A stretch of DNA of 64,000 nucleotides from Branchiostoma floridae (lineage: Eukaryota; Chordata; Leptocardii; Amphioxiformes; Branchiostomatidae), in the NCBI RefSeq assembly GCF_000003815.2, contig NC_049987.1, positions 19,812,614 to 19,876,613 of the forward strand, in the 5' to 3' direction. The translations under genes and the position numbers were made by a program. Below the pieces are notes generated by a model that saw nothing but the letters and a program-made list of their open reading frames with translations, had not been told where the DNA came from and ran no database searches. Below, one piece after another: positions 5,196 to 33,763 of this stretch (position 1 is its first letter; the number at the start of each line of letters is the position of its first letter).

Positions 5196-5390
5196 ACTTT
5201 CTATAATGTTATGTAGCACTTTACACATTCTCTTCGCTAAACATTTGGACAGAATCCGAACATCACATGTTAATAAAGTTAAGGGGCGCCAGTTCGCCAC
5301 AACATATCTTGTGATAACGAACGACTTCCACAAGCTTCATTGATCTTGAACGATTTCTAAAGTAGATAATGCCCGTGGCCAGATTCACTA
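5196..5390 (-). pseudogene. Outer Tx1/L1-type LINE, 5'-side fragment
   Basis: Minus-strand translation contains NWRPLTLLTCDVRILSK followed by CLAKRMCKVLHNIIES. This is the RT block that directly precedes the DQTNFMQKRYIGD block at 2596 and below, so the two fragments join across the inner LINE at IIES/DQT. Upstream of about 5340 the frame is broken, and homology fades near 5390. Confidence 0.75.
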
Positions 5391-11800: not shown

Positions 11801-14800
11801 TCATTCATTGTTATCCGCAGTGCGTTCGCCTCCACTGCTGCTGCTGGCATCTTGGGCTGATTCTGAAGTCTCAGAATCTGACGCCTGGAGAAAGGAGTGC
11901 AATAGACACCTTTTCAGTAAGTAATTTGTATCGCAGCCACAAGAGTAACCATGAACAATTGTCTACAAACATGGAGAAATAACTGCAGCAATACTTGCAT
12001 ACTGAGGCCATTTTCGCTGAAACACATACGGCGATCGCGGAGCAACCTTACGACAGCCAAAAGTATACAATGTAAGTGACCATTTCGAATGATTTCATAA
12101 CTGGAGTATAACGCAAGATCTAAATGAATGACTTTCAAAGCTTTCGAGAGAACCTAAATACTTGAATTTGAAGAAAAAATAATGAGCATAGGAAATGTTA
12201 CCATGATTTGAATAACTTAACTTCTATCCTACCAGCTTGGCCCGGATTACCTGTCCAAAATCCACCTGTATACAAATGTATTTTTTTCATATTCTATGAT
12301 TTCGTTTGGTTTTACTCAACATTATGTTTGTTATATTTTCTTGTCTGTTATTGTTTCAATGTTCGTTTGTACTCTCAGTTTTTGATAACGGCATGAAAAT
12401 AAGCGTGTTGAGCTTGAGTTTGTCACCATAATGTTATGTACTTATGTGTTACAATAAAAAAAAAATGTTACCATTGGATCGGATCGGAAGCGGAACATGT
12501 ACGGGTTGTATGGCATGAGGCGAGAAGCGCCGGGGGCCAGGGGCGCACAGCTGTACCGGCCGGTCACCATCCTACCGCAGTAGTACCCGCGGGGGCAGTC
12601 CGAGTTCCGCCGGCAGCTCGGCAGGCTGGCCAGGAAGTGGGGGAACAACTACCCACAGGGAAGACAGAGTCAGGCATGTAAGCAAACGTCCGTGACTGTG
12701 TGTATAAATCAGCAGAATTCAGCATCATGTCCTGTATTTTGAAACCAGAGATAGATTGCCAAAAAGCAGCTGGATATGATTTTGGAAACCGTCAGACGTT
12801 TCAACTAGCATCCACTAGTTTTCGTCAGTGCTTTTTGGCATATTTTATTACCTGGATGTCTAACCTTCATCGACAGAGATAAATCTAGATTGATTGTAGT
12901 TGTTTACCGTGAGGTTAACTCCCTTGATTGATATAAAAAGCATGCTAATATACAACAAACTGCAATAGTTGTGTATGGATAACGAAATTTAACACATTGA
13001 CCCATGCATTACTGTATCTTCACTATTCAAAAGGCAGCGTATTGATATTTGATAGTACCTAAAGGGCAACTAAAATGTTCAGATACCCCCTTACAGCTTG
13101 AGCATATTTACCGGAGTTTGAGGGCGCAAAGCAGCCGCCTATTGAAAAAACACATTCATTGAAACCGACAGCGTAGACACACACATTGAAACATTCATCA
13201 ACACGCACACATTGAACATTGCCATCACTGTAACTATTAGATTCAACGAATGTTTCGATAATGCAATACACTCTCCAAAACGCCCAAATAATGTCAGGTA
13301 CATTCATATTGTTTAAGTATATTTACCGGAGTTTGGGGGCGTAAAGCTGCAGCCTATTAAGGAAAGTGAAGATCAGTTGAAAATGGTTAGGTTGATTACA
13401 TAAAAGGAAATACAGTCAGGTTCATTTGTCGCGGGATTGTTAGATGGATATACATACCTTAGGTAAGGTGCGCTCACACCGCACTTGTGACAAGCTTGCG
13501 TCACTACGGGGTTCGAAAGAAACTCAACGAATCTCAGAGATACAGAGCGAATTGTCTTAATTTTTGTGTTTTTTGTTGTGTTCTAAGTCATACTTTTACG
13601 TATTACTAAATATCTAAATTATTTTTTTTAAACGGAGAAAATAACAAAACAGTGACACAGTGACGCAAGCATGACACAAGTGCGGTGGGAGCGCACCTGT
13701 AAGGTTAAATGACAATCATACTATCATGGTTCGTAAATAGACAGAGAGAGAGAGAGAGACATAAGACATGTAAAACAAAGGACAGGTAAAACTAAGATGA
13801 TATCGCAAATGATTACATTGGATTACATTGTCAGGTTTCTGTATAACTTTCTAACATATCCCACTAGGTCATAGTCATAATCTGTGCTTGGTTTTAGAAT
13901 AGAGCCAAGGTGGTAGCTGATGAAGATTATTTATTGGTGTTGAAAATTGAAGAACGCATCCGTAAATAACTTCATCAGGTTGGCAATTGTTCATATAGTA
14001 AGGTTCTTTAGGCACAACTTACTTCCAACGTTTCGATGTCTATTAGACACCATCATCAGGGTAGAAAGACTGGAAACTACTTCTTGCTGCTATTTATAGC
14101 CGATGTAGTTTCCAGTCACTCTACCCTGATGATGGTGTCTGATAGACATCGAAACGTTGGAAGTAAGTACTCCTTGGTTGTGCCTTGAGGGCATCCGCCA
14201 GTGATTCAATATACAATCTCTTAACAATGGGTTCCTATGCCAAAAAGAGGAGAAAGCAACTGTTAATAACTCAACTTTCTCGGACGTTACTGGCACACAA
14301 ACATGCCCTCATTTGAAAGCCCGACATCTCAGCTATCCAAACAAACACATCTCGGCATGAATCTAACGGCACAAACTTCCGGGAAACTGAAAGATTGACC
14401 CATGACCTCAAAACCGCACCACAACCCAGTGAGGAGGCCATGTGCTTGGGCAAAAAAGTTCCAACTTTAAACCCCCTAACAACCACAAAAACTCAGCTTT
14501 TTGGCCCTAATCAGAAAGTAGAAACCCTCCCCTGTCACACCCACCTCAAAACTGCCAGGATTTCTACCCATCTACCAGAAAAAAAATCTTGAAGTTTTAG
14601 ACCCTGAACTATATTCGACCACCATCAATTTGCATGGCGGATTGACTGGCGGATCCCCTAAAGAACCTTACTACTTTGTATATGCATGTTAATGAGAAAA
14701 GCGTGTCGTACCGCGCTGTTGACATAGTGAGCAGGCAGTCCGCTGACGCTTCTCGGGATGCAGAGGTGAGTCTGCCCCAGGCCGCGGAAACTCTGACAAT

Positions 14801-14858
14801 AGTCTCCGGGAAGTCGGCAGTCCCCGTTACTCTGGCAGGTCGTCGTCAGAAAGGGAAC
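11801..14858 (-). CDS. Cassette D: secreted cysteine-rich protein, three exons
   Basis: Exons (minus strand): 14858-14712, 12648-12472 and 11884-11801 (stop TGA), all phase 0, 408 nt, 135 residues. Exon 1 carries a 4-Cys module (CQSNGDC..GDYC...LC). Exon 2 carries a second module (CRRNSDC..YYC...SC) and an MPYNPYMFRF end. Exon 3 is short and acidic/Ser-rich (ESAQDASSSSGGERTADNNE). Acceptors TTCCAG, GGGTAG and CTCCAG and donors GTACGA and GTAACA fit. It is exon-for-exon paralogous to cassette C. I found no signal-peptide exon beside it; it may use the one at 33682-33747 or an unseen local one. Function unknown; probably extracellular. Confidence 0.65.
13466..13698. mobile_element. MITE family 2, copy a (AGGTGCGCTC termini)
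   Basis: The termini AGGTGCGCTCACACCGCACTTG and the inverted CAAGTGCGGTGGGAGCGCACCT are flanked by the three-base duplication GTA (13463-13465 and 13699-13701). There is no coding capacity. Three-base duplications and the family's TAA/TTA sites suggest a PIF/Harbinger-type non-autonomous transposon. Confidence 0.8.
14018..14168. repeat. Long near-perfect inverted repeat (about 63-bp arms)
   Basis: The left arm is 14018-14080 and the right arm 14106-14168, with a 25-base spacer. The arms contain CCAACGTTTCGATGTCTAT and CACCATCATCAGGGTAGA and differ at only about three positions. Weaker pairing continues outward (GGCACAAC at 14011, GTTGTGCC at 14176). The transcript would form a strong hairpin inside the first intron of cassette D. 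Confidence 0.8.
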
Positions 14859-14935
14859 CTGGAACAAAACACAAATCGGTTAGGGCATGTACATCTTCAA
14901 AGAATGGCATTAATAAAAAAGCAATAACTGTTTAT

Positions 14936-15080
14936 TGAAGTTTATTTGCAAGTTCGTGCCCGAGGGCTAATTGCAAGTACATGGTATAAACATAGTACAT
15001 ATACAAGTGGAAACGAACAGTATTAAATAATATTCTACTCTAATGTTAGTGTTAGCTATTTATAAACAGGTTGGGTTTGA
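14936..15080. repeat. Dispersed repeat, TTTATTTGCAAGTTCGTGCCC family
   Basis: GAAGTTTATTTGCAAGTTCG then CCCGAGGGCTAATTGCAAG and GGTTGGGTTTGACTT. A nearly identical copy lies at 49430-49565, with shorter diverged copies near 10798-10845 and 43722-43770. It resembles the tail of a retroelement, but its class is not clear. Confidence 0.7.
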
Positions 15081-16584
15081 CTTTTCTTTTGCAATGACAA
15101 ACGCTGATGATGAGTTGAATAAAAAAATCATCAAAAAGAATGAAACAGGCACATTGTTCATATAAGTTTACATGCCATATTCAGGAAACAAGTTAGATAC
15201 AATGTAGCATTGCATTTTGATATGTAATGTTTGCATTGACACAAAACGTGTACATGAGTTCTGTAAGGGTATGGGTTACATTAGAAATATCAACAAGACA
15301 ATGTGAATTGTTAATCATTAAAATTTTAAAGTAATTAATTCCGTGTTAACTGGGGAGAAGAGGGTGATATTTTGTTATTTGTTGTTTCTTGGATTGGTAA
15401 TTCAATCATACGCCGTTTGGTTAAACACGTATAGCCAGAAACGTAACTGAAGCAAATAATGACAAAGAGAAACCCATTAAAAACAAACACCAAGATGATT
15501 GAGTTTAGTGAGACATGGGGTATGTTAATACATGAGGTTTGTGTTGGGACGCTGATTGGAGACAGACATCTTCGTCCATACCTTCGCCACAGTCCTTTAT
15601 TCTTCTTCCTCACTTGTGGCCATCGTTGGAAGGTTTTGTTTTATAACCAGTGCAGTTCATTCTGTTTGCGTCCTGTTGAAGGTCGCTGCTGTCTGCATCC
15701 TCTCTCAAACTCACAGAAACCACGTAATGAGCGTCGCTTTACCAAATGAATGTTCTATTAAATTGTTATCCTTATGTCTCACTTCGTACACCTTGTAGGC
15801 TGTTATAATTTGCTATTCATTCCGTCAACACCGTTTCACTTGGAAATGTACACTACATACACTTAAGCGAGGGTAAGAATGACATGCGAATGATGAAAGG
15901 ACAATTTGGTAATGTTCTGATTATGATTTTATTAAGATGATCTCAAAAGTCCACAGCCGGTCCAGGTCAAATTTCTGATGAGGTTCCATGTCTTAACGTT
16001 AAGTCTATATAAATAACATAGCATACAGTTCGAAAATATAAACGAATAGATATGATAATTACTTCGGGAAAATGGACTGTATGTACTATGTACTGTATCT
16101 GGGACAGAGTACTTGTCGAAAACTAGCAGCAGCTGTTTTCCTGGTGATTATATTAACATGTTATAAAGGCCTTGCTGTCCGTTTTATCTAACAAAGCGGA
16201 GGTATACAAATTTCACAAATGTAAAGCCTCATGACGCCAGAGGGGCACGGACAGTTGCAGACCGTTTCCCCGCGTTACCTACTCGTCCCCAAGTTCCCGT
16301 CGTCGATGCTAAACATACTGTACTGTCCCTAGACTCAGTATCTACTGATTAATTACTTTAAGAGGCTAAATTCGTGATTGCATCGCGTCCCACGCCTGGT
16401 AGGTCTTCACTTGCCGCCGATTCTACGAGCTGCAATGAAATAAATGATGATTGGAATGATTCATTGTAGAGCAAACTGTACGAATTGGTTGTTCATTATT
16501 TACGGGTAGATACGAATAAAGCTCACAATGTTTGATCTACCTTAATTTAATTGTCAAAGCAAAATCTGCATCCGCAAAAACTAA

Positions 16585-16831
16585 AGGTGCACTCTCACTG
16601 CCTTTACGTCAAGCTTGCAAAACTGCGGGGTTCGAAAGATGAATTTCAGAGAGAAAGAACGAATTTTTCTTAGTAATAATACTTGTTGCTGATTTTTGTC
16701 ATCTTCTTAGTCAAATTTCTACGCATTAAGCAATATCTAAATGATAAATAGGAGAATATAACAAAACTGTGACGCAGTCGACGAACCCCGCAGTGACGTA
16801 AGCTTGACACAAGTGCAGTGAGAGTGCACCT
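16585..16831. mobile_element. MITE family 2, copy b
   Basis: The ends AGGTGCACTCTCACTGC and GCAGTGAGAGTGCACCT are inverted and flanked by TAA (16582-16584 and 16832-16834). It lies 25 bases downstream of the cassette C stop, so probably in its 3' untranslated region. Confidence 0.82.
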
Positions 16832-16855
16832 TAACGCCTTCCAGATAAAGAATTG

Positions 16856-19084
16856 TTACGAACCGAGAAGCCCAGGTGGTCCCCTGGAAGCCGGTTGGCC
16901 TCCTCCCCGCCCCGACTCGGCCTCGTTCCCCTGCTGCTGGGCAGACTCACCGGGCTGGCCGGACTCAGAATGAGGGTCAGTAGCCTTAAAGTAAACATTT
17001 AAAACAGGCCATTAATGATTTATGTCCTATAAAATCAATACATTGATAATAATGCAAATGACTGAAATGTTTTCTGATATGTGTTGGTACAAATGTGCAC
17101 AGAGAAGAATCGGTGGACTTATCAGAGCTCTTTATTCACATTAATTCAGATATCTAGTATCTAAAGAAAACAACAAACGTTAGGACTGATGACAATACGT
17201 CTACAGGTACTTACTTCTGTCCGGAAGAGGAATGGGTTGTAGAGTCCATACGGGTTGTACAGCCCGTAAGGGTGAGGGTAGAAGGGTGCCCCGCGCGGCG
17301 CACAGGCCAGTCCCCCCGCCACTACGCTGCTGCTGGCACAGTAGTGAGTGGCAGGACAGTCGGCGTCGGTCACACACGCCCTGCCGCCGGCCAGAGCCAG
17401 AGCTGCCGCCGTGGGCAGGTAAGGATACTGCCGGAGACAAGGTAACAGGTTGGTATCATTTTCACCATTACGAAGAAGCGAGGAGAAGCCGAACTTCTGT
17501 ATTACACAAGATTTGTGTTACTTTTATACAACACATGTATGTATATATGTTTTGACTTGTTGTGACCCTACTTGGCTCGGTCGGGCAAAACTGTACAATA
17601 AAAGTCTTCATTCATTCATTAATCCTTGCTATCCCTGATTTCACTTCGACAACATAAAAGGTCAAACATATGTTGCCGTTATTTTCGTATCCAAGACTTC
17701 ACTCACTATCACCTTGAGCTCTTAGCTTTCTTCCTTCCTTCCTTAAGTAGCAACCATGTTTCAAATAATGTCAGCAGAGGATAGAACTCATCAAATGTAT
17801 GATTATACTCTGCCCCCCCCCCCCCCCAAAAAAAAATTCTGTTGTGGGTTCAAGGCTCACATAATTTATGTTCAAACTATCGAGAGTAACGATGGAGTCA
17901 AAAATTATCAACGATAGGTGGTTCTTAAACTTCACAAACTCCACACTGATGGCTGTATTGATTCAAAACACCCCCGTAAAGTGGAAGCACCCCCGTATTG
18001 TAAACATATTTACCGGAGTTTGAGGGCGCAAAGCAGCAGCCTATTGAAGAAAACATTCACATTCATTGAAACAGTGTAGATTGCCCATATACAGAGAAAC
18101 ACCGTATATATATATATATCTATCTAACACTTTAATCCAGGAACTATTCATGCAGTTCGATTAAAGGTATCATCGTCGTTACCTTTAACTGGATTTCTAG
18201 AAATATGGCTTCATATTCAAACATGATTTCAAAGACAAAAAAACGTACAAAGGTCAAATCACATACACCTTTTTATCAATGAAATTTCGTTTAATATACG
18301 AGATTTTGGTCTCACGACAGTTGCCGCCTCAATGGAAAGAAGCATCAGTGATTCCGATTTATGTGAACATGTCGTATATGATTCTTCAGTTCATTCAAAA
18401 TATATCTACTGCTAAACGGAGAGCAAGAGACAGTTTGATTCAAAACGGAGAGCAAGAGACAGTTTGATTCAAAACGAAAAGAAAAAGTTTGATTCAAAAC
18501 GGAGAGCAAGACACAGTTTGATTCAAAACGGAGAGCAACAGACATATCTTGATTCAAAACGGAGAGCACGAAACAGTTTGATTCAAAACGGAGAGCAACA
18601 GACATATCTTGATTCAAATCGGAGAGCACGAAACAGTTTGATTCAAAACGGAGAGCAACAGACATATCTTGATTCAAATCGGAGAGCACGAAACAGTTTG
18701 ATTCAAAACGGAGAGCAAGAAACACATCTTGATTCAAATCGGAGAGCACGAAACAGTTTGATTCAAAACGGAGAGCAAGAAACAGTTTGAATTGATTCAA
18801 AACGGAGAGCAAGAAACAGTTTGATTTGAAACGGAGAGCAAGAAACAATTTGATTCAAAGATTCAAAACTGAGAGCAAGACACGGTTTGATTCAAAACGG
18901 AGAGCAGGAGACAGTTTGATCTACTCACGTAGTTGGGGACATAGTGCCGGGCCAGTCCGCTGACAGTCGCCGGGACGCAGACGCCCGTCTCCCGTAGACC
19001 GTGGAAGGTCTGGCAGTAGTCGCCTGGTATGGTGCAGTCCGCGTCCGAATTACATGTCACGGTGAAGAATGGTCGACCCTGGGC
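16856..19084 (-). CDS. Cassette C: secreted cysteine-rich protein, three exons
   Basis: Exons (minus strand): 19084-18929, 17427-17215 and 16963-16856 (stop TAA), all phase 0, 477 nt, 158 residues. Exon 1 starts AQGRPFFTVT and holds one 4-Cys module (CNSDADC..GDYC...VC). Exon 2 holds a second (CVTDADC..HYC...AC) followed by a YNPYGLYNPFLF segment. The last exon is Gly/Gln-rich (ESAQQQGNEAESGRGGGQ). A GTGAGT inside the last exon at 16950-16945, after SGQP, could instead splice in phase 1 to 16429-16407 and end as ARRIGGK-stop. Read-through is favoured by the match to cassette D's last exon. The 'AQ' start is what one expects just after a signal-peptidase site. Function unknown. Confidence 0.68.
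18411..18922. repeat. 29/31-bp minisatellite abutting a 5' splice site
   Basis: About 16 copies of a unit containing GATTCAAAACGGAGAGCA, alternating 29 and 31 bases so that a higher-order 60-base period is visible. On the minus strand the array starts only about six bases inside the intron that follows exon 19084-18929 (donor TAC|GTGAGTAGATC). Thus the first intronic bases belong to the repeat. Confidence 0.88.
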
Positions 19085-20127
19085 CTGGTTAAGAAATTGT
19101 GAACGTGTCCTTTAATTTGGAATCGCTCTCTTTTGATGATAAGGCACGAATCTGATTACAAAGTGTCCACACACTAAGCTGTCATAGATCGTGATGCCGG
19201 TAGGGCAGTATGCGTTTCAACAATATAAACAGAGTAAAACATGAACAGTGCAACATTAGACAAGTATTAAGAGACGTCACATATCAAGAAAGCCATACAA
19301 CAGCAAAGCCACAGATAACATCGATTCTAAGCTGATAATTAGATGGCGAATTAAAACGGACCACACCATCATACTTCATATTTGACAACGTCAGATGTTA
19401 CAAGCATTAGGAACGTGGGGAGATGAGGGTTAGGGGACCTTTGATACAAAGTGAGTTTTGATGAAAAACACCGAAGCGAGGGTTTTGGAAGCCCGAATTG
19501 ACTCAACATACACATGTGTTATTGACGAAACGGGCAAGATTGTCATTATTCAACACCAGTTTTGCGACACGTAAAACTAAATCATACGAATCATACATAG
19601 AACTATGTACCACACAGATTAGTTCCTATTCACACAATTAGATACTACGTTAAGTTTATTAATTCAGGTTCAAAACCACACCAAAAAAGAACAAGACAGT
19701 GTTCATACCTTCGATCGAACAGTTCTTCCAAAATCAGCCGAAGAGTCTCAGATCATGAGCCTCAATTCAGCACCTTCCATCCAAGTGGACGGGACACATT
19801 CTTGTACACGAATGGTTTACCTTCCTATTGCATAATTGTGTCGTGTGGAATTATGTAAATTCAAGCAAGATCTTCCAGTCGCTGCAATGTTTTATTGTAT
19901 GCAGCAGAACAATAGACTATTTACAATAACGCATACTTTTACTTGCAAAGTACCGTGTACAAGTATGACAATTCATTTTAGCTGTTTTCCCTACAGCGGT
20001 TATACTTAGACTCTGATTAGTATAAGTTTATTGTATTTCATGGTATTAGATTGATCATTTTAAAGTTAAAAGCGTAAAGGGACACATGTGAAATAAACAA
20101 GCAAAATATATAATTTCTTCTAAATAC

Positions 20128-20133
20128 TTTATT
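20128..20133 (-). terminator. Polyadenylation signal AATAAA for cassette A
   Basis: AATAAA on the minus strand, 337 bases downstream of the cassette A stop codon. Confidence 0.45.
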
Positions 20134-20469
20134 GTAACAACTTTATACACTGTTTTATTTTGATTGCTTCACATCAAATAGCTTGCATATCTCCGCATGT
20201 CTACACTCTATGGTCTCCTTCAATTGATGTAACATTCGCATGGCAACAACTAAGCACGATGGTAATCTATGGGTTAGCACAGTTTCTTAATTCATCACAT
20301 CATCACTTATTATTGATTTTATACTGTTTACCAGTTAACAGTGAAACTAGTAGATTTCAGAGTGATACAGGCACACACATGACTCTGCGTATACGTAGAT
20401 CTTTCAATATCATACTACAATGAGATCGTATTATTCATCTGTCAATCAATTGTCTTGCTGTCGGCTTCT

Positions 20470-22827
20470 TCAGTCTTCAGCGATCCCGCCTTCAAAGTTA
20501 GCAACTATCAGAGAAAAAAGATGGTTTTATTTATGTTTTGTTATTTTTAAATATTTTTCCAGATTTCTTATAGGGGAAGGCCACTGACGATACTTGTGTT
20601 ACACAGTCTATGGATGCCTGGGGAACCCTTCCAAGATCTCGTGGCCATACCCTTCTAACTTGAGATAAGCGTTCACAGAACTACCAATAGGACCTCAGGA
20701 TTCTTCATCACTATGATAATCAGTCAAGAAGGAGCTCAGTATTTTCTTTCACTATTGAAACTGGTCATCAAAGCTTGTATTTAGTGGTGCTAAGTCTGAC
20801 AATGATTGGTCCAAGGTGGCACATATGCAGAAATCACTAAGATATTCCGGATTCTCCTGACTCAGGCGTACGTCACATTTCCAATGCGGGCCGACCGGGC
20901 AGCTTTCGGGATCAAAAAGTATGATAGGAAAGACACCAAACTACACAAGACGTAAAGACATTAGTTGTAGGCATTATTTGTGCATATTTTTACGTACACA
21001 TTTCAATTTTTCGTTTCCACAAATATTCCGGTTTGAAAATGTGACGTAGGCCTAACCAATGGAAGGGCTGCTAAAAGCGTATTTCAGACATTCTAATGTG
21101 ATACTCACCAGGCTGTTTCTGTGGGGGCTGCTGTCCTCTCGCGGCTTGCGGGGGGATCCAGGGCCCCTGCATGACCGGTGGCATCTGCCCCTGACCTTGC
21201 CCCTGCCCGGGAACTTGGGGAGGAGGCGGGAACCGGTTTCCCCCCATGGGCACAATGTCGTCGTTTCCAGGCTTTGGCCCTTCTCCGCGGGCCACGTTCT
21301 CCCAGAACTTCTTCATCGCCTCCTCAGCCTTCTTCCTCATCTCTTCGTGCTTCGCCCTCATCTCCTCCTCCTGCTCCGGAGTCAGGGATGGGGGAGTGCC
21401 TGCTCCGGGAGGAGTGCCTGCTCCGGGCTCACCGGTCCCCTCGCTGACGTACTGCGTATCAATATTTCACAAATGATCACTTTTGAATTGTTACAACAAT
21501 CAGATACAAAATAAGTATTTGTTTGAACCTTTGTTTAGTCATTCAAGCTCAAATCGGCCTGCAAGCCGCTTTTCATTGAGGTCATGAGGGAAGAGGCAAG
21601 GGTCAGACAAAGTATATAACAGAGATGCAATGTATATAGTTTAAAGTCCTTATGAGTCTCATAATTAACTATGGTTCCCTAGATTGAGCTGTAAAACGTC
21701 TGGCGACACCTTGGAGGAAGCTTGCAATAAACAGGGTTGAGTGTAAGATCTGAAGAAAGACTGATTGCAGCTGCAGAGTGTACATACCATGCACAGCAGT
21801 AGAACACAGTGGACTTAAACTACTACATCTTGTCCATGAAATATCTATGCACTTCCAAGATTCTTTGCTTGCTCAGGCGGACCGGTACCTGTTGTTTCAT
21901 CAAACATCCTGAGAAACATGTCCTGTTGTGTTCTTCAGACTTATGAAGTATAATAGAGTATATGTACGGCCCCCATTCCACTTGACGGCGCTCTCACCGC
22001 GCTCCTATGGCGACCTTGGCGATCCCACTGCGCTCTCAAAGCGATGGTCACATTTGCCATCACCGTGAGAGCGCCGTCCCAGTGGAATGGGGGCATTACA
22101 GATGGATCAATTAATCTATTCAACCCAATAAAAGCAAAACAACTCACCCCAAGGTAGGGGTGTCCGTAGTATGGGTAGGCTCCGTAGTGGTAGGGATATC
22201 CGTATCCGTAGCCACTATAGCCGTAGTTGTAAGGATAACCGTAATTATAAGGGTATCCATAGCTCTGGAGAAACAAAAGGAACAAAACAATAAATTTGGA
22301 TGCTACATCAGAAAGGTGCCATCTCTGGTTGATATATTTGGGAAATAGATTTGATATCATTGTAGTTTTGTCGAGGTTATCATAGGCACTGAGTAGGTAG
22401 ATAGATATGATGGGAAGGACTAGCGGATACATGGCACAATTTTCCATTTCAATCCAGCTGAGCTCTGCACGACACATCCAAAACTGTCCAAAGAATGTCC
22501 TCACTTCTTCCGTACGACATATGTGACATATGTGACATGTGATAGTTCAGAAGCTAAAACAAAAAAAATTATAAGAAAAAAGTTTTATGATCTTACGTAT
22601 GGGTATCCGTATCCATATCCGTATCCGTAGTAAGGGTAGGCATAGCCGGCCCCACCGTAGCTGACGTAGGAGCTGGGGACGCAGAGGGCCCGTCCCACAG
22701 CCGGGAACTCCTGGCAGGTGTACCCGCCGCCGTTGCAGTCTTCGTCGCTCTCACACGTATTGGAGAGGGCTGGGTGGGACCCTGTATACCCGTACCCGTA
22801 TCCTCCATAATACGGGTAATACTGTGC
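20470..22827 (-). CDS. Cassette A: Tyr/Gly-rich secreted protein with one 4-Cys module
   Basis: Exons (minus strand): 22827-22597, 22264-22148, 21451-21109 and 20504-20470 (stop TGA). Total 726 nt, 241 residues; the phases (0,0,0,1) agree at every join. Exon 1: AQYYPYYGGYGYG, a 4-Cys module (CESDEDC..GYTC...LC), then a YGYGYGY run. Exon 2: 17 Tyr in 39 residues. Exon 3: EGTGEP start, a SLTPEQEEE / AKHEEMRKKAEE charged helix, a VPMGG motif and a Pro/Gln-rich end. Exon 4 ends ANFEGGIAED. It is paralogous, exon by exon, to cassette B. The composition suggests an extracellular structural protein that could be cross-linked through tyrosine, which is inference. No local signal exon was found. Confidence 0.75.
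20868..21054. mobile_element. MITE family 3, copy a
   Basis: The ends GGCGTACGTCACATTTCC and GAAAATGTGACGTAGGCC are inverted repeats. The interior shares GACCGGGCAGCTTT with the copy at 62796-62997. It lies in the last intron of cassette A. Confidence 0.7.
21967..22096. mobile_element. Short MITE related to family 1
   Basis: The ends GGCCCCCATTCCACTTGACG and the inverted CGTCCCAGTGGAATGGGGGC enclose about 90 bases rich in GCGCTCTCA-type motifs. The TIRs clearly resemble family 1 (CCCCCTTTCCACTAGACGG) but the body is much shorter. It sits in an intron of cassette A. Confidence 0.75.
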
Positions 22828-24169
22828 CTGTAGAAAAGCCAGACAGAACCGTGTAAGTGGCGCTCAAGCAAATGTTGTACGAGGAACGGGGTAAGATAGA
22901 ACACTACAAAGGAGAAAGGCTCTGAGGCCATCTATGGTTAACATTGGCTCAACCGCAAAATATTGGAAGGCCCAAATTTGAAACTAACTCGTGAGGAGAA
23001 GAGGGTAACTCCATGAGGCAGTCCAGGTGAAGTTAGAACTTATATAAGATATAAGACTTTTTCACCGGCAAATAAAGAACTTTTTTCGAAGGAAGAATCG
23101 TTGTAAAACATGGTGCGATAGATCTAGACATTGCCGCTAAGTCTATTCATTTTGGGGCATTTGAGGGGAGTTTAATTGATATTTTTCTTCATGATGCAAT
23201 AACACCGTCTATTTCTGTAATATAATGCGCATTAGGATTCACTATATCTTTTATTCTATCACAGCTCTATTTCAAGTAATCAATAATCATGTTTTAGGAC
23301 CTATCTACCGTCTTTACGATAACGGCAGTAACACAACAAAAGGAACAAATTGCAGCATACCTTCAGGGGGCATTCCGAGGATGCTGCGGCCAGTCCAGAA
23401 CAAAAAAATCTACACCACAGAGTCAACATAGGGGCGGTGCGAAATGATATCACACCAGGTTTGAGCCAATTAAAGATATAGCAACGGATGTAAGGCTCAC
23501 ACTCTCACAACCATCCTGCAGATAATACACATTTGTATGTTCGATCAAAGAATACAATCATACAGCCTCGACTAGCATCGTCATCTGCAAAACAGCAGCT
23601 TTTATTTCAAAAATCATATACATGGTTTGAAACCAGGTGGTAGTCCGTGAGCACACAGCAATAATAAGAGCGAGAATATCTTCGTTTATGATACTGACGT
23701 ATGACGCAAACTACGTACGCAATCCACATTTCTTTTTCCACATTTGTATAAGACACGTAAAGAATACATGTATTTTGTATCGCAAAATATCATGCGTTCA
23801 AATTGTATTTTCCCTTTGTCAACGTCCGTACCAGAATGAACATGATGATTCCTATTTGATTAATTTTGACTTATTCCTTATCAATTGTACACTAGATTTC
23901 AGCAGTTGTAATCGACACGAGACTGTCAATCTTTGGGAGCTCTATGTCAAAGGGATGACTTTTAAAATCCACATCAGATTCTTGTTAAAATGGCTTGTGA
24001 TAATCTTAATCAGTCACACATGCTATGCTAAAGATCACCCACACATTGCATTGCTAATCAGCAGGCTTTGCTGGCAGTAGAAATTAAATCAGTGTCCTTG
24101 TCCGGTCTGAGTCTTGTCATCATTTGTGCAAGTAGAACAATCACTGTCTTCAACAACTCCCCTGTGTCT

Positions 24170-27100
24170 TTAATTCACTGCGACTCCGTCGTCGTTTACT
24201 ACAGAAAAAGAATTTTGAAAAAGATGTCATTGATGAGTAGCAAGCCCTTCAAAAGAAGGTTGCTACATAAAACCGTGTTGCCACAGCCGAATATCCCATG
24301 CCAATGTGTAACGAAAATCCAATACTGGGGAAATCAAAGAAAAGTTAGAGTTACCTTACCTCTATTGCAAACGTTATGGCGTTATGATTATCTACTAAAT
24401 GCATTTTGTGCGTGCGACAGCATCAATCAACACAAGCTACGTTACCTTGCTCCTCTGTAGCAGGCCTCCGTCCCCTGGGCACGCGGGGCGGCATCCACCT
24501 CCTCCTCTCCTCCTGGTTACCTTGGTTACCCTGCTCCCCCTGGGGTGGGGGCGGCGGTGGAGGGAGCCATTCACCTCCCATCGGCACCACGTGATCCTCC
24601 AGGCTCTCTCCGGGCTTCAGCTGCTCCTTGCCTTGCCTGTTCCTCCAGAACTCTTCTGCCTTCTTCCTCATCTCCTCGTGTTTGGCCTTCGCCTCCTCCA
24701 GCTGCTCGGGTGTGAGGGTCGGGGGAGGGCCCTGCCGTGGCTCTGCCGTGCCCTCGCCGGTGTACTGAAGTGTGACCGGCAAAATGTGGATTTTCAACAA
24801 CTATACCTACCACAAATGATAGATTTACCTTCCTTACGATTTGAAAGATGAAAGTGAAGATACTTACCCCAACGTATGGGTGACCATAGTACGGGTAGTA
24901 GCCGTAGCCGTAGCCGTAGCCGTAGTAAGGGTATGAGCCGTAGTAGTTGTAGTAGGGGTAGTTATAACCATAGTACCCGGATCCGTAGTAGTCGTAGTAG
25001 TTGTAGTAGGGATATCCGCCATATCCATAGTATCCGTAGTACTACATTCAGAACAAAGAGAAATTTCATTAAGAATAGAGACACAAACTAAGCAATATTG
25101 TCGATGTCGCCTGTTGCTGAAAGGGGTTTTGCTACGTAACATCAAATTGCAATGTGGCACAGACAATATTTTGAACTAGAAAGGCCGACATTTGCTTAAG
25201 AGCAAATACAGCATATTTCAGCCATACCCCTTCCCACGCAACATTGGACTGTTCCAAATCACCCCTGCGCAAAAATGGAACATCCTCTTAACAGTACATT
25301 ATCCCCCAAAGTGGACTGGTATTATGAATTGATTCCAGGTAAAAACAGAGCTTGTTTCTATTTTTCAGAAAATGACAATAATCACACCTTCCATTCAGAA
25401 AATTTTCATCATGACTGAAAATTGTTGAATGACTTCATGTAATGTCATTAACAATTTTCAGTACGATAACTAGGTGTAAGTTTAAAAAAGTATAAGCTCC
25501 TTGTGATGTGGGTACATTCATTATTGCAGTGAACTTTTTTTTATTCAAGTAGGGCATACGATTTAATAATTATCAAGCAGGTGCAGGTACTGTAGGAGCG
25601 TTTGTTTTCTTCAAGCTGTAAAACTGTTAAACTGTTTTACTTTGTATGCAATCAGCCATCGAGCCTATTCTTATTTTAGTTTAACAACTTCCTGCCAGAC
25701 CCGGAAGATACGATTGAACCTTGTTCGAGGATTTATTTTCGTCTGTCTGGTCAGTCTGTTCATACCCTCGAGGCTGGCGCTGAGAGTGTTTTATTGGGCT
25801 GAAACTCTGGCAGTTTAAAGTTACTTACAATTTAAATGTTCAAAGTTTATGTCAAACAACAACAGCACTAGGAAATGTGGCCACTATAGACAGGTGGTCA
25901 CTATAGAGAAAATGCTGATCTATTGACTAGGAGCCATACGTTACACATGATCATTAATCATATAAACATTGCACAGGTAAGCCAATTGTTTAGATGTACA
26001 ATTAAGTTCAAATAATTCTGAACAGAAATATTGATGAGAAAATAATCATTCTCGCCACTGTCTAACTTATAATTACGTATCAAAACTAAACGCAGATTTT
26101 CTAACTAACGCACCTTTCGCCGACTTCATCAAAGGACCGCCGGCTATCAATCAAACACGGCTGTTGATTAGACTTAGAGTTTCAAACAGCCATGTGCTGC
26201 CAGTTGACAGCGAACTTCATGCTACGTGATGTTTTACATTGCTTGGACCTTCTTTCCTACAGCGGTGCTTCTACAAAATATTTAGACTGTAACACTGAGT
26301 CCCACATGTTTTATAGAATAGAATTTGACGCAGAACAGCGTTTTTTGCTGGGTATTTTTCTTGAAACATGTTCGTGGGAATATCAGCGAGGCGGCGACGT
26401 AGGGATATCAGACCGTCAACAAAAGTCGCACGGCGGCTAACGGCGCATCGAAGATACTAGCGCTATAAATAAGCGCTTCAACTAAGGATGGCAACCCGTA
26501 CAATATTTATGTATACTGTTGAGCTAAGTAAAGTTTGTTGTTTATGAGGTTTTAGTTGTCTTTGAAGCTTTGACCCGAAATATTTTAAAGTCAAACTGCT
26601 GAAGAGAAGTAAGTGACTGCTACGATTATCGTAGATATGGCCCTAAAAAAACTGATAAAAGAAGCCTTCTCAATAGTCTAAAATGCAAGAGCTTCCGGGG
26701 GGGCTTCCCCCCCCACACAGTGGCCCTGGACCCCGCCAGGGACATTCGGCGGCCCCCGGACCCCTGTCCGACGCTTTGAAAAAATCCTGGCGAGAAGTCT
26801 GTACGGCCTGAGTCTTCAAGTTAACGTATTGTGTGGTCCCGCTTATGAATATTAATTAGCCTTCGCTGATTGGCCGAACCATTAATTGAATTAACTCTTC
26901 CTGCCGGCTAGACGCAGGTGCAGATGTCGGCTCTGTGGGGTGAACGTCCGAAAGATCATGGCATGGAGAACGAAAGAAAACCAATTTCCCCTAAAAAAAG
27001 TGCTGTAATTAAGCCTTTTACAGTACTTTAAGCCAAAAATTTTACTTGGATCATTTTACCAATTATCTTATGCCTATCTATACCAAATGTTACTCATACC

Positions 27101-28906
27101 AGGGTACAGGGGTGCAAAATATACTGTTATAAGACCGTCAACAACAGTCGCACGGAGCTAACAGCGCAGCGAAAATACCATCGCTAGCGTTTCATCTTCG
27201 GATAACAAGTTATAAGTACTGTTGAACTCAGTAACGTTAAAGTTTGTTTTTAGTTGCCTTTGACGGTTTGACCTGAAATAGTGTTACGCTAAACTCCTGA
27301 AGAGAAGTTAAGTGACTGCTGCGATTATCATAGATATGCCCCTAAGAACTGATACAATATAAAGCCTTCTGAATAGTGTAAAATGCGAGAGCCTCAGGCG
27401 GGCTTCGCTCCCCCTGGCGGGAACACTGCTATATACGGGATCATGAGGCCCCGCTTATGAATATTAATTAGCCTTTGGCCTCCGCTTCGCTGATTGGCTA
27501 GGTCTTTGATTCAATCAACTCTCCGGCTGACGCGCACAGGTGTGGCTCTGTGCGGGGTCACGGAAGGTCACGTCAGGAGGCCAAAAGAAAACAAATTTCC
27601 CCTCAGAAAAGTGCCAAAATTAATCATTTAAAGTTGTTTATGTCAAAAATTTGACTTGAATCTTGTTACCAAGTATCTAATGCCTATCTATACCAAATTT
27701 CAGGTCATTTAATTGTAATACCAGGGTACAGGAGCCAAAAGTGTCCTTTTTTGGTCAAAAATTGGCCAAAAATCGCAAAAAATAAGCCTTTTGTTGCACT
27801 GTACACCAAAAGTGTTATTGAATTTATATGAAGGTATTATCAAGGCACATCTGTGTCAAATTTCAGCTCATTCGGTTGCAATACCAAGGTACAGGAGCCA
27901 AAAGTGTCCTTTTTTGGTCAAAAATTGGTAAAAAAAATCGCAAAAATAAGCATTTTGTTGTACTGTACACCAAAAGTGTTATTGAATTTATATGGGGGCA
28001 TTATCAAGGCACATCTCTGTCAAATTTCAGCTCATTTGGTTGTAATACCAGGGTACAGGGGCCAAAAGTGTCCTTTTTTGGTCAAAAATTGGTCAAAAAA
28101 TCGCAAAAATAAGCATTTTGTTGTACTGTACACCAAAAGTGCTATCGAATTCATATGGGGGCATTATCAAGGCACATCTCTGTCAAATTTCAGCTCATTT
28201 GGTTGTAATATTAGGGTACAGGGGCCAAAATATACAGTTTTGGTCTAAAATTGACCAAAAAAATCTCAATAAAATCATTTTAGAGGCAGATATGAAAAAA
28301 CTGAGAAAAAAGCATCAAGGTATTGGCCCATTCTACCCCTGTGCCAAATTTCAGGTCATTCGGTCCAGGAACGGCGGAGATGAATCACTTTGAAGATTTG
28401 ACAGGAGAAAGAAGAAAGAAAGAAAGAAAGAAACATTACGAATACAATATATTTCACCATACTATGTATGGCTGAAATATAACAAAACTTCTGAAACATC
28501 ATTACATCAGCAATTCTGCACCCAGAAAACGGAATGACAGTAATAAATTGCCAACCAAAATGCGACATGCGTTACCGTTTACGTCATGATTATGAGCTTT
28601 TTCGACCACCAGATTAGCTTGTATTATGTCCATGTCTCTGCATAGTCCGTCTATAGTTAGCCTTACTGGAGACGATAGTAAAAAGATAAAACAACGTACA
28701 TCATATGGGTATCCACCGTATCCGTAGTAGCTGCTGTACGGGTATTGGTACTGGCTTGGCGTGCAATAAGACTTGCCGCTGACGGGCGCGAATTGACACC
28801 GGTACCCGGCGGACCTGCAGTCGCTGTCACTCTCACATTCGGTTGCGTGACCGGACACACCATAGAACTGGTTGTACCCTGGATAACCCGGATAACCCAC
28901 CTGCGC
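24170..28906 (-). CDS. Cassette B: very Tyr-rich secreted protein with one 4-Cys module
   Basis: Exons (minus strand): 28906-28700, 25041-24868, 24764-24446 and 24198-24170 (stop TAA). Total 729 nt, 242 residues; the phases agree. Exon 1: AQVGYPGYPGYNQF, a 4-Cys module (CESDSDC..GYRC...YC), then Tyr/Ser/Gly. Exon 2: 58 residues, 31 of them Tyr, the rest mostly Gly, Pro and Asn. Exon 3: EGTAEP start, a TLTPEQLEEAKAKHEEMRKK charged helix, a VPMGG motif and a poly-Pro/Arg-rich end. Exon 4 ends VNDDGVAVN. Donors GTACGT, GTAAGT and GTAACG, with pyrimidine-AG acceptors. It is a tandem paralogue of cassette A. Probably extracellular and structural; no family name recognised. The signal peptide is either the shared exon at 33682-33747 or unseen. 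Confidence 0.75.
26405..28435. repeat. Repeat block: 0.7-kb tandem duplication plus 164-bp repeats
   Basis: Two related ~0.7-kb copies (from about 26409 and from about 27126) share AGACCGTCAACA..GTCGCACGG and ATGCCTATCTATACCAAAT. They are followed by about four 164-base units starting near 27714, 27877, 28042 and 28205 (CCAGGGTACAGG, CCAAAAGTGT, AAATTTCAGCTCATT). The block ends in a (GAAA)n run at about 28408-28432, typical of a retroelement tail. All of it lies in the first intron of cassette B. Confidence 0.75.
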
Positions 28907-31046
28907 CTAGAGGGGGACGAAAGTCATGAAATACCAGCGGTCAAAATGGTGCGTCTGACAACTGACGCTGCTGGACGGCAGTGCGCTAGGAGGGTCATCG
29001 CAGACCTACCCATACATGGGGGAGAAGGGGGTGATGAAAGGACTACTCAACGTCTACCCAGAGGTGGATACACGTTATGGATGGAGGAAGGGGGCTCAGT
29101 CGTTAAAAAGAAATGACAGCATTCATTTGGTGCCAAATGTTTGTGGAATTTCGATTTATATAAAGCCAGGCATTTTCTACGTTCAACTAACTACGTGACA
29201 AAATCTATGTCTAAAGGTGTTGATCTGAGCAGTGTTTCTGACCTTATGCACAGGAACTTTTGAACGTAAATAGAACACAAACAATCAGCTTTAGATGTTT
29301 TCTTATTAATTAAGCCATATACAACATGTTGGAATGTATGAAAATATGTAATACGGGGTAATCATGTGACGGTGGTCTCAAATGGTGCCTAGGATGAGCT
29401 ACCTTAAGATTTAAGGGCATGAATTGCTTTTTTGTCAAAGTTAATTTTCAGTCATGAAACATTGATCAACCCAAGGTATGACCATAACATGCTGCTCTTC
29501 CTGGCCTACCTACGCTACTGGACACGCCCCACATCATGTGTCGTGTAATGTTAAACCTGATTTGGTTCTCTAAACTGGCCTGCGAAAAGCAAGGAGAACA
29601 GTTTTGAAAGTTTTCAACTTACCAGAGTTTCCGTGTGGTGTTTTGTACTCAGCGGGGACCAACCTCTCCGCAGATAGACATGCCACAGCCGAGTTCGGAT
29701 TATTGTTGAATCAAGTCAATGACAATATGCGGTACATATAATCGTGTCCCTACTTCATTTTTAACGAATCAGAAATGAAGAACTAAGTATTTCTCAGAAA
29801 AAAAGAAATGCCTACATCAGTGACTAGATCATTTTATTTTTCGTACTAAAATATTTTACAAAAATGACAGCTTTCATGCTAGAATATTTTACAAGTACTG
29901 TAATCTTACTGTAATGCTGTTGCATACACATTTCCTAAGTTTTGTTGTTCTATGTTGGATATGTATGATGACTTTGTGTAATTTCTACATGACAATGTCT
30001 TTATAACAGTAAGAAATCCAGCTTCTTCTTTCCAATAAAGAATCTTTCGCTTGAACACATTCTTTCCTTTCATTAGAAGCATTATAAAAGATCATCAGAG
30101 TATCTATGAACAGTTCGGATCGATATGACATAAACAAGAACTATTAAGGGAAAAAAGTGTGCACAATTATTTCTCATTGATTTCCACAAGCATTGTTATT
30201 GCAGCATAACCATCAATATAAAGGGTTTTGTATTATATTTTTGATTTCTTTCAGACTACTGACATTCCACGAAGCCATGGCACGGCTTATAGCATCTCTA
30301 GCAGCCAAAACATCAATACGTAAAATTACAGAAACGCAATTGAAATCTTGTGCTTGATTTCACAAAATCACCTCCTTACATGCAGACGGCATGATTACAG
30401 GTCGCCTATCGATAATCCATTACAAAAGGTAACTAGTGTGAGAACTGCTTTGCACAACTACATTCGCCTCACCTGTTACTGCGGATATTTCAAAGTTGTG
30501 GTCCCATTGTATACACTGTTGTACTCCAGGGCAGATAGCTCTTCGGAGTGAAAAACCTAGAATCGTTACTACTAAAATCTGTTGATGAATTTTATGACAA
30601 AGCAAGTCTTTAAATAGCATTACCTGTCCTTTCTGACATTAGAATGATCATAGCAGATGATGACAAGTTAAGTCTTATCAAATATATAAAACATACGTCA
30701 ACAAAAAAATAGCACCGAGATAAGATTCTTACATTCAACGTTGGACGGTTGACTTTTTCACTAAAAACTCGCTTTCACTGAACGGTAGTTGCAGTTATAT
30801 CCACAACGACAATTTCGAATTTCACTGTGATTGGTTGTCTGTAAACTTCCCCGTGACTGTGGGCAAAATCACTCAGCCATAGTATCCAGACCCGAGGTCC
30901 TACAAGTAAGCAAAGAACGGAACTCTGTAAGTATCGTTGGACATCAAAAGTTTACACCGAAATGTACTGCTCATTTCATGCTTGTCTGCAACATCTTAAA
31001 AACAACAAAAGGAATAAAAGGTTTAAAAATTCAGCATAAAACTTAC

Positions 31047-33763
31047 AGGGGGTCCTGGTCTTCCCGCGGGAACACGGCTTGGTCTTCGTACTCTTCCTCC
31101 CCGAATGCAAACTCCATAATGCCGTACGCCCATGCCAAATGAGTAGAATGTATCGCAGTAGCTGTTATCATAGTCGTCGCAGTCTTGATCCCGGTAGCAG
31201 TACTGAAACTGTCAAACAGACGATATACGTAAGACCTGACAGCAAATGATATAGATGGTTCTTGAAAATTGACAAATAGTGTAAAGGATATAAAATGAAC
31301 ATGCTTTATTATAGAAAATCCTTACCCGACATAGCCCATAGTCTTGGAACAAGAATGAATGTTTGTCACAGACTTTTGCTGCATCACAATCACTGTCACT
31401 GTAGCAATAGGGCTGGTGGGGACCAAGAAACACAAACAAGTTTATCAATAAAATAAAGATATTGGGATGATTTACATGTTTTTGGCCTGGATATAGAACA
31501 CTTGAAATATATATTTAACTTTCTGTTTACTGAAGGCAAACGCCTCGGTAGACGAGACGTCAGAGCATGAGTGAGGGCAGGATAGGAATGCTTTAATCTT
31601 TAATCCTCAAACATACAGGGACCTGGTTGTCGTCTTCATGTTGAAAGGCCTACAGATCAGAAAATGAAAACATTGCGAATATGCCTACATCTTGAGTCGT
31701 CTAGGTGAAGAAGAAAATACCTACCGATCTTGGCGACCTTTTACATAGTCCATAGTTGGTGTCCCTGTAGTAGTCGCAGTAGGTATTGCCGTCGCAGTCC
31801 GCATGGCTGTAGCAGTACCGAGGCTGATAGGAAAATTAAATCATTGATAGATCAATCAACCACATAAATGGAGATAATGCAATAACATAAAAAGAATATT
31901 TCTCTTTGCATGCTACAGTGCTTTCTAATCAATACATCAAATTATACCAACTTGGCTTAACGTCAGTGACTGACAATTAGTTAGAAAGAGGATCCCTTTG
32001 AAAGCCATTTATCAAGTTTTCAAGACAACTGTTCTCAGTAACGTCAGCAAATCTTACCCTGCAGATTCCTCCACCAAAGTAGAATCTTCCATATGTTATT
32101 GTGTCGCAAAATGTAGATGGGCCACAATCATTGTCCGAGTAGCAATAGGTCCTCTGAAAACCAGCAAAGTAATTTGATGTAAACGACGTTGAATGATGAG
32201 CGTGCAACCTGTAACATCTGAACCTAAGGAAAACTCAGAAAGCTACAATTAGAGCTAAGGTCTAAGAAATTTAATCAAATTGGAATGGAAGGAAATGATC
32301 GTCAAACTCTAAATGAAAATGTTTTTGTATGAGGTGCGCTAGGGGTATTGCTGGGGTAAATAGCAAACCCTTAGTCTGGTTGGGCGGTCACTGTTCCGAA
32401 CACACGTTCCGTACTGGCCGAAGATCTGGGCGTCACAGTAGCTGTATGCGTCACAATCGACGTCGCTGTAACAGTATCGGGCAGCCTGGCAGAAAACATA
32501 GTACAAAGCGAGTGAAACGGAAGCAGGGTTAGTGCTTGCAAAGTCACATTGTGTCGTTAGAAAGCTTCTATGTCGAATAAAAGCTGAGCATGGAGAGTGT
32601 TAGGTTGCTTGCTTGTTTGTTCAGCGTACATTCTGGTCGCTAAGCGCTGAATTCTAGTGGAAAACATCGGATCGCACAAATAATAGAGACGAAAATTGAC
32701 TGATACTCACTTGAGGTGATAGCTGTTCCGAAGCACCACCGCGAGGCTACCGCGTCACTGCGCTAAATCGGCCATCTTTTCCAGGAGGACCCGGATGTAG
32801 GACCCGGATGTTCTTACCACAAAACTTCGTTTCCGAGGCTACGTCATCGAACGGGGCGAGGAGCTGTAACGCTGTGCCTTACACAGATGTAGTTGAGTGT
32901 AAAAAGAAATCTTTGGAGAGGACTCCGCCGAAACCTGCAGCTATGTCCGCCATATTGTGGTGCAAGGTGAGGAGGAATGTGACCTGAAAGCAGCTGCCAG
33001 GTTTGCGGTCCCTTCCAAAACGCGACATCACAGCAAACATGCGGTTGAGCTTCGGTACAGCCATAACCTTAAGTGATTGCTAGATGTTAAGTTCTAGCAT
33101 GAGAAGTAAATAGTCTACGATCCGTACCTCCAATGGTATGTTCTTCAAGCAGAGGCACTGGCCTAGTCAAACTCAGCTTGAGAACAGATTTTGTAATATG
33201 ATATCTATGCACATATCTTGTAACACTGAAAACTGGGTCATGGAAGGTTTTTTTCCTGCTCTAACAAGGGCAAGTTTAAAACAAGTTAAGAAAATCTTTA
33301 TCATGACAATTTCCTTATTTTTCTTTTAATCTTTTTTTGGGATATCACCCTCTTCTCCCCATCGTTCATGTATAATCAATACACATTATAGGTGCCAATA
33401 TGGCGGACATGCTTGTATTTTTCTGCACTGATTCATTTACTTTTACTTCGTATCACTTGCTGTTCTTTCAGACGTAAAACTTTATCGTTAGATTCCATTT
33501 CGGTTAACGTAATCAATCATGAAATACATACCAGTTTATAAAACTATAAAAGATATAATAGTTTTTTTTTTTTCATTTTGAAGAAATACAACAGCAAACT
33601 TGGACAATTAAAAGCAACAGATGCTGCATTCAATGACAATGTACATCTATCTTTCAGATGTGTGGCTGGAAGACGTCTTACCGACACAAGCTGTGCCGAT
33701 CCCACCACAACAGCCGTCAGGAACAACAGTAATCCGCAGGTCCCCATGCTTCTTCTTCTTCTT
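31047..33763 (-). CDS. Signal-peptide exon plus five single-module 4-Cys exons
   Basis: Exons (minus strand): 33763-33682 (ATG at 33747), 32485-32396, 32153-32058, 31823-31725, 31412-31326 and 31208-31047. All coding joins are phase 0. The first gives a typical secretory signal (MGTCGLLLFLTAVVVGSA, then QLVS) and follows the acceptor TTCCTTCCAG, so an upstream 5'UTR exon is expected. Each further exon is one module of about 29-54 residues: YCYSD-x-DC, then YC/FC/VC, then GxC(R/K). The last exon continues into a basic Arg/Pro/Gly tail. Exon 32485-32396 lacks a GT after its expected end (CGG|AACAGT). The chain may continue into cassette B at 28906, or end at a tiny exon 30994-30971 (MLQTSMK-stop) after a 52-base intron. 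Secreted; function unknown. The pattern loosely recalls the start of Dickkopf-type cysteine domains, but this is only suggestive. Confidence 0.7.

Follow-up and report, generated by a model that had tools for sequence, protein, structure and literature searches.

What kind of protein does a run of short minus-strand exons rich in cysteine, tyrosine and glycine encode in a lancelet genome, and do these exons belong to one gene or to several? Lancelets are the reference for early chordates, yet little is known about the proteins that make up their extracellular materials other than collagen. The exons lie in a stretch of 64,000 nucleotides from Branchiostoma floridae (contig NC_049987.1; hereafter the window), and a comparison based on the sarcoplasmic calcium-binding protein likewise indicates a Branchiostoma-like genome. 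A search by title and abstract start, of partial coverage, found no description of the locus in the literature; the public gene annotation may well contain an entry for it labelled "uncharacterized". We give an even chance to the reading that these exons form a gene locus of the lancelet lineage which encodes modular structural proteins for secretion, based on a signal exon, 11 modules, phase-0 exons, duplicated cassettes and an array of similar modules on another contig (C19).

The initial annotation proposed twenty modular minus-strand exons, comprising five single-module four-cysteine exons and the cassette pairs B/A and C/D. This layout is borne out: all of these elements were found, and 21 minus-strand exons were re-derived between positions 11801 and 33747 of the window, with AG/GT at every internal exon border:

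33682..33747, minus strand: E1, start and signal-peptide exon (MGTCGLLLFLTAVVVGSAQLVS), phase-0 donor
32369..32485, minus strand: E2, four-cysteine module exon
32058..32153, minus strand: E3, four-cysteine module exon
31725..31823, minus strand: E4, four-cysteine module exon
31617..31649, minus strand: E4b, possible 33-nt acidic linker exon, a weak candidate proposed from splice signals alone
31326..31412, minus strand: E5, four-cysteine module exon
31047..31202, minus strand: E6, four-cysteine module exon with a basic/Pro tail
28700..28906, minus strand: B1, four-cysteine module between Tyr-rich arms
24868..25041, minus strand: B2, Tyr/Gly-rich exon, 53% Tyr
24446..24764, minus strand: B3, predicted Glu/Lys helix and Pro-rich exon, phase-1 donor; read-through leads to a stop at 24423
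23361..23383, minus strand: B4, possible 23-nt linking exon, phase 1 to 0
23361..23429, minus strand: alternative to B4, which would be the end of this start exon (MLTLWCRFFCSGLAAASSECPLK)
22597..22827, minus strand: A1, four-cysteine module between Tyr-rich arms
22148..22264, minus strand: A2, Tyr/Gly-rich exon, 44% Tyr
21109..21451, minus strand: A3, predicted Glu/Lys helix and Pro/Gln/Gly-rich exon
20470..20504, minus strand: A4, terminal coding piece, (V)ANFEGGIAED, stop
18929..19084, minus strand: C1, four-cysteine module exon
17215..17427, minus strand: C2, four-cysteine module exon with a Tyr/Pro tail
16856..16963, minus strand: C3, Gly-rich terminal exon with stop
14712..14858, minus strand: D1, four-cysteine module exon, C1 paralogue
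12472..12648, minus strand: D2, four-cysteine module exon, C2 paralogue
11801..11884, minus strand: D3, acidic Ser-rich terminal exon with stop

The locus holds 11 four-cysteine modules, each on a phase-0 exon of its own (11/11). All exon joins are in phase 0 except B3/B4 and A3/A4, and all lengths are divisible by three except those of the same four exons (B3, 319 nt; B4, 23 nt; A3, 343 nt; A4, 35 nt), whose phases match pairwise. The claimed compatibility of lengths and phases thus stands: when concatenated, the 15 exons from E1 to A4 give 2103 nt and a single frame of 700 amino acids, whose lone stop is terminal. It should be noted that at least one 23-nt candidate like B4 was found in 15.5% of shuffles. 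Because almost all exons are in phase 0, they are freely combinable.

Whether these exons form one transcription unit or several genes is about evenly balanced, with a slight lean to one unit. The N-terminus encoded by E1 reaches a nine-residue hydropathy of 3.1 in a home-made scan, as befits a predicted signal peptide, and E1 was the only strong signal-peptide exon found in the locus by a scan that is blind to far-off exons or unusual donors, a point that the initial annotation does not mention. The presence of one strong signal exon despite three stop-bearing ends (A4, C3 and D3) makes a single unit with alternative C-terminal cassettes a serious reading, according to which the signal peptide would come from E1 and the choice of the A, C or D end from alternative splicing or polyadenylation. 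There is, nevertheless, close to an even chance that the locus consists of several neighbouring genes (E with B, A, C and D), which have their own first exons, arose by tandem duplication and encode secreted, structural proteins; this contests just the one-unit part of our reading. The three ends favour it, with a further stop at 24423 if B3 is read through, and so does the observation that the first residues of B1, A1 and C1, each following a phase-0 intron, are Ala-Gln, as would be expected of second exons behind a signal peptide. The candidate second start exon at 23361-23429, which has a good donor, would separate B from A, but its hydropathy is lower (1.79 vs 3.1 for E1) and its start context is poor. 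Also against several genes, a looser signal-exon scan returned zero phase-0 rows upstream of B1, C1 or D1 (one weaker, phase-1 signal-like row lies upstream of C1, and its phase does not fit), and no upstream ORF is shared above the level of shuffles: the best score for C1/D1 was 39, matched by 8 of 40 shuffles, compared with 169 for the true C1/D1 exon pair, and those for B1/A1 and B1/C1 were 35 (29/40 shuffles as high) and 39 (11/40). Poly-A signals after A4, C3, D3 and the B3 read-through stop (4, 1, 0 and 1, respectively) were uninformative, the background being 0.94 per 800 nt.

The four-cysteine modules are the part of the locus with the clearest relatives. A regular expression for them matched 11 times on the minus strand of the window, against 0-1 times in five shuffles, and all 11 modules contain four conserved cysteines. 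The same expression has one plus-strand match, at 52160, which is of another kind. Judged by sequence, the modules appear similar to the opening portion of the Dickkopf N-terminal domain (PF04706), with which they share C-x(2)-D-x-[DE]-C, then a cysteine that often follows an aromatic residue, and then G-x-C. Three window constructs matched Pfam Dickkopf_N with 24.0, 24.3 and 18.0 bits, all below the cutoff of 25 bits; the remaining four had no Dickkopf_N match in the Pfam search. Short stretches of the modules also match part of the DUF7107 (PF23416; E 0.0025-0.26) and Lustrin cysteine-rich repeat (PF14625; E 0.011-0.048) profiles, but all of these matches are below the curated cutoffs. No confident family for the proteins of the locus came from the Pfam, PDB-sequence and Rfam searches.

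A larger array of such modules lies on contig C19 (10.36-10.46 Mb), where the regular expression matches 37. Twelve are inside a one-exon ORF of 1139 amino acids, which passes Dickkopf_N with 45.8 bits (cutoff 25), and 25 are outside it; up to 18 modules occur in one chain. The arrangement of one module per phase-0 exon seen in the window does not hold for the 12 in this ORF. For the modules outside it, a phase-0 acceptor candidate exists in 21/25 and the nearest acceptor is in phase 0 in 18/25; no donor scored above threshold for 14 of the 25, and the first donor is in phase 0 for all 11 modules with a scored donor. One stretch of 17 modules has a single strong signal exon, in phase 0, upstream of it. 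With an HMM of the window modules, 29 of the 37 modules on C19 scored higher than the 99th percentile of shuffles with fixed cysteines, and 15 of the 37 (about 0.4 expected) under a stricter control in which the two acidic positions selected by the expression were also fixed. A query of E modules reached C19 weakly (E 0.017 and 0.76), and a query built from five C19 modules returned 14 matches, each of them on C19, and no window module at E<=1. In sequence, the two sets would therefore be linked weakly but above chance. A piece of the 1139-aa ORF gave 11 matches inside that ORF and one weak match at C19:15346490 (E 0.016). Genome-wide, the pattern C-Y-x-D-x-D-C matched 28 times, against nine for the backward control: three matches are window modules, two are in the C19 array, 16 read CYCDxDC and probably belong to other families, and seven lie elsewhere (contigs C1, C2 twice, C4, C10, C11 and C12), so that additional module loci are possible. 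The statement in the initial annotation that the proteins have no recognised family was thus too strong for the cysteine modules, given the near-cutoff Dickkopf_N matches and the C19 relative above it.

These likenesses raise two alternatives to a structural role. The modules could be host-defence or protease-inhibitor knots on a mucus-bound scaffold, which we consider unlikely. Tandem duplication of small Cys-rich modules, as seen here, is common in immune effectors, and there are weak WAP and knottin-like matches; however, WAP domains have eight cysteines and the window modules four, the WAP matches (15.0 and 13.7 bits) are below the cutoff of 20.8, and the paralogues look constrained overall. 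The other alternative, which we regard as quite unlikely, is that the proteins are Dickkopf-like or prokineticin-like secreted signals, whose modules bind receptors (e.g. Wnt co-receptors) and whose Tyr-rich parts are spacers. Dickkopf proteins bind LRP5/6 and antagonise Wnt; their N-terminal domain has ten cysteines and is accompanied by a second, colipase-like Cys domain. We take the DKK1 domain to look like two window-type four-cysteine units in tandem plus two extra cysteines. The near-threshold matches in the window and the C19 relative favour signalling, as do the scores of a DKK1 fragment with an HMM of all 48 modules (18.5 bits; 1 of 500 Cys-fixed shuffles as high) and with a C19-only HMM (18.5 bits; 0 of 500); a window-only HMM, in contrast, gives this fragment -0.5 bits, with 46 of 500 shuffles at least as high. 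Unlike Dickkopf proteins, the window modules are single four-cysteine units joined to Tyr-, Gly- and Pro-rich tails, and the second domain is absent among the Pfam matches of the window constructs. The likeness to the prokineticin/AVIT proteins, which have a colipase-type fold and 10 cysteines as opposed to four, concerns the N-terminal Cys pattern and a weak, non-significant fold match of the C1 model (mean pLDDT 63.6, modest confidence) to mamba intestinal toxin 1 (1imt; probability 0.82, E 0.34); Foldseek with this model gave nothing at E<=0.001. The profile matches to Bv8 (E 0.044) and mamba intestinal toxin 1 (E 0.21) are also non-significant, and the Prokineticin profile matched the C cassette with 10.6 bits (cutoff 21.6), with no match listed for the other constructs. 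Chains of up to 18 modules fit a structural repeat better than a signal.

The tandemly duplicated cassettes appear to diverge like coding sequence, leaning to synonymous differences. Between the B/A and C/D pairs, dN is 0.20-0.47 and dS 1.3-2.6, the latter near saturation, and the differences at codon positions 1, 2 and 3 number 109, 88 and 161 over 306 aligned codons; the bias by codon position did not reach significance when only the two gapless DNA repeats were considered (p 0.43 and 0.14). Global alignments gave z-scores against shuffles of 10.4 for B1/A1, 18.3 for B3/A3, 19.0 for C1/D1, 6.7 for C2/D2 and 7.2-9.0 for the five E-exon pairs tested, but only 3.7 for the low-complexity B2/A2 (score 135 vs a shuffle maximum of 133.5); those of B1/C1 and C1/C2 were 3.8 and 1.3. 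That the genes look functional, as had been proposed, is supported by open frames, intact splice sites and, for the five pairs of exons compared, this coding-like divergence, which together make it very improbable that the locus consists of decayed or non-expressed remnants, a view favoured by the lack of a recognisable start in some cassettes.

For the remaining cassettes the absence of a family held up: Pfam returned none at E<=1 for the Tyr-rich B2 and A2 and none for B3, with just one weak match for A3 (E 0.7). The structure predicted for A3 is one helix (residues 25-54; mean pLDDT 60.8). Matches of the helix/Pro-rich cassette in a genome search were confined to its two places in the locus; the B2 query recovered B2 and nothing else, not even the paralogous A2, which marks this second search as insensitive. 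The E1 signal peptide and the Tyr/Gly-rich makeup, with tracts of 44-53% Tyr, support the earlier suggestion of a secreted, extracellular-material composition. Gly/Tyr-rich extracellular proteins include molluscan shematrins and Tyr-rich oocyst-wall and eggshell proteins; the locus proteins share with them the very high Tyr and Gly content, low complexity and predicted secretion, a likeness of composition and not of demonstrated sequence homology, but their Tyr tracts lie between four-cysteine modules and a Glu/Lys helix. In a structural protein of this kind, the modules would fold as small disulfide-braced hairpins, the flexible Tyr/Gly tracts could be cross-linked Tyr to Tyr by a secreted peroxidase or oxidase (of which composition is no proof), and the helix and Pro-rich tails may make protein-protein contacts, giving an extracellular layer such as a cuticle, mucous net, egg coat or skeletal-rod matrix. 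An endostyle-related role, as an iodoprotein, is scarcely credible. A 2026 review (PMC13078365) states that the amphioxus endostyle can generate proteinaceous T4 without thyroglobulin expression, and an older study (PMC3464141) describes an amphioxus thyroglobulin-like protein.

In summary, the locus provides a defined candidate set for lancelet extracellular materials, built on a tiny unit that resembles part of the Dickkopf domain, and a clear case of assembly from phase-0 exons. Arrays of this unit exist at two or more chromosomal sites, and in this locus it is joined to strongly Tyr-rich and helix/Pro-rich cassettes, of which the genome searches, insensitive for the Tyr-rich B2, gave no copy elsewhere. 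These observations suggest a possible origin of the Dickkopf N-terminal domain by the pairing of smaller units.

Every exon type that the initial annotation had listed among its twenty minus-strand exons was recovered in the re-derived gene model, in which the locus comprises 21 exons with a 33-nt possible linker (E4b) and a 23-nt exon (B4) included. The exon joins are in phase 0, save B3/B4 and A3/A4. Joined from the signal-peptide exon E1 to A4, the last exon of cassette A, the exons encode 700 aa with a single, terminal stop, and the third-position GC of this model is 0.65, compared with a window GC of 0.42. The frame is likewise kept to a terminal stop when E1 is spliced to C1 or D1, the first exons of the paralogous cassettes C and D, either directly or via the single-module exons E2-E6. 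Judged from their alignments, the divergence of the paralogous exons is coding-like. In protein-guided alignments, with dS close to saturation, dN and dS were 0.46 and 2.6 for B1/A1, 0.20 and 1.9 for B2/A2, 0.40 and 1.8 for B3/A3, 0.39 and 1.3 for C1/D1, and 0.47 and 1.5 for C2/D2. Differences at codon positions 1/2/3 numbered 109/88/161 over 306 aligned codons, and two gapless DNA repeats, found frame-blind, gave 10/8/14 and 4/3/9, the same trend without significance.

Several repeats lie among these exons: a 29/60-bp minisatellite (18414-18920) that ends 8 nt off the low edge of C1, beside its splice donor; a tandem repeat of 163 bp in 3.6 copies (27694-28281) inside the B1-B2 intron; and an inverted repeat of 67 nt, 94% complementary (14017-14168), in the D1-D2 interval. 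A prokineticin-like exon on the plus strand (52160-52417) scored 20.3 bits, slightly below the Pfam cutoff of 21.6. Other features of the window are:

2770-5208, minus strand, retroelement reverse transcriptase, neighbour of the locus
5955-6920, plus strand, rhodopsin-type receptor exon, neighbour of the locus
62380-62721, minus strand, myosin-tail exon (E 1.1e-7, under its Pfam cutoff), neighbour of the locus

All 11 window modules share the same four Cys and a single Asp without exception. Pfam returned sub-threshold matches only, Dickkopf_N being the best. Although similar to a portion of the N-terminal Dickkopf domain, the window proteins do not pass any of the defining Dickkopf tests that were applied to them. 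A profile search of PDB sequences with the module gave no significant match (best, transglutaminase elicitor, E 0.035; next, prokineticin Bv8, E 0.044; mamba intestinal toxin 1, E 0.21). The predicted structure of C1, of modest confidence (mean pLDDT 63.6; core blocks 71-79), has two short strands, and its best match in a fold search, 1imt, was not significant (E 0.34).

Similar modules were found on another contig, C19, in a genome of 513.4 Mb and 431 contigs (a published B. floridae assembly is described as having 19 chromosomal scaffolds, which is consistent with it; PMC7269912). The window itself lies on contig C9, at 19812614-19876613. The genome is Branchiostoma-like, as the lancelet sarcoplasmic calcium-binding protein of PDB 2sas aligns with five consecutive pieces at C18:8125466-8131389, at 71-90% identity and with residues 1-35 unmatched. 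Queries with the E modules matched C19 weakly (E 0.017 and 0.76). A regular expression applied to 250 kb of C19 detected 37 modules, all within 10.36-10.46 Mb; five shuffles gave 0-2:

C19:10380374-10383790, minus strand, 1139-aa ORF with 12 modules
C19 10.432-10.454 Mb, minus strand, 17 modules
C19, plus strand, eight modules

By a looser pattern the 1139-aa ORF holds 18 four-Cys modules, with 82 Cys, and it scores above the Pfam Dickkopf_N cutoff. Among the modules outside it, 21/25 have a phase-0 acceptor candidate and 11/25 an above-threshold donor, the first of which is in phase 0 in 11/11. Against a profile of the window modules, 29/37 C19 modules exceed the 99th percentile of Cys-fixed shuffles, and 15/37 do so when the acidic positions selected by the regular expression are fixed as well. 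In a rough tree without support values the E modules are intermixed with C19 modules and C1/D1 are placed with modules of the 1139-aa ORF; the short length of the modules precludes finer resolution. When five joined C19 modules were used as a genome query, each of the 14 matches fell on C19, with no match in the window. Overall, common descent of the window and C19 modules is likely, though not proven; a genome-wide pattern added seven candidate matches on other contigs. On the plus strand of C19:10418500-10427000, four-Cys modules adjoin long Pro/Tyr/Ser-rich open frames (of the YPSPYPSPYPYP type), a different low-complexity partner of a similar module.

Whether the locus forms one transcription unit with alternative ends or several separate genes is about evenly balanced. 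In two home-made scans, a first one and a looser phase-0 one, E1 was the only strong signal-peptide exon. The first scan added two weaker candidates, one overlapping A1 and the other upstream of C1; their phase-1 donors mismatch the phase-0 acceptors. The looser scan yielded no candidate ahead of B1, C1 or D1; it gave six poor ones within the B1-B2 intron and another three that either precede or overlap A1. Comparison of the upstream regions of C1 and D1 revealed no common ORF above shuffle level. On C19, too, a single strong phase-0 signal exon (C19:10455500) precedes the 17-module stretch, whose five internal candidates are in phases other than 0. In favour of separate genes, a candidate exon with a good donor at 23361-23429 could be the start of a gene A. 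B4 lies inside it; as an internal exon, B4 is the sole candidate of its interval, and 15.5% of shuffles also yield one.

Genome searches with the helix/Pro-rich cassette matched two places, A3 and B3, those with C matched C1, C2 and D1 only, and A1 and B2 each matched only themselves; because the paralogues B1, D2 and A2 were missed, the sensitivity of these searches is limited and they do not prove that copies are absent from other loci. A scan of the C19 region for Tyr-rich sequence detected a single stretch rich in Pro and Tyr, but none rich in Gly and Tyr. Judged by searches of this one genome and of Pfam and PDB sequences, the combination of module, Tyr-rich and helix/Pro-rich exons appears to be lineage-specific. 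Secretion of the proteins is supported by the predicted signal peptide of E1. Tyr makes up 53% of B2 and 44% of A2, and A3 is predicted to contain a single helix and no further secondary structure. This composition, with Tyr tracts lying between disulfide modules, suggests that the locus may encode an oxidatively cross-linked extracellular material.
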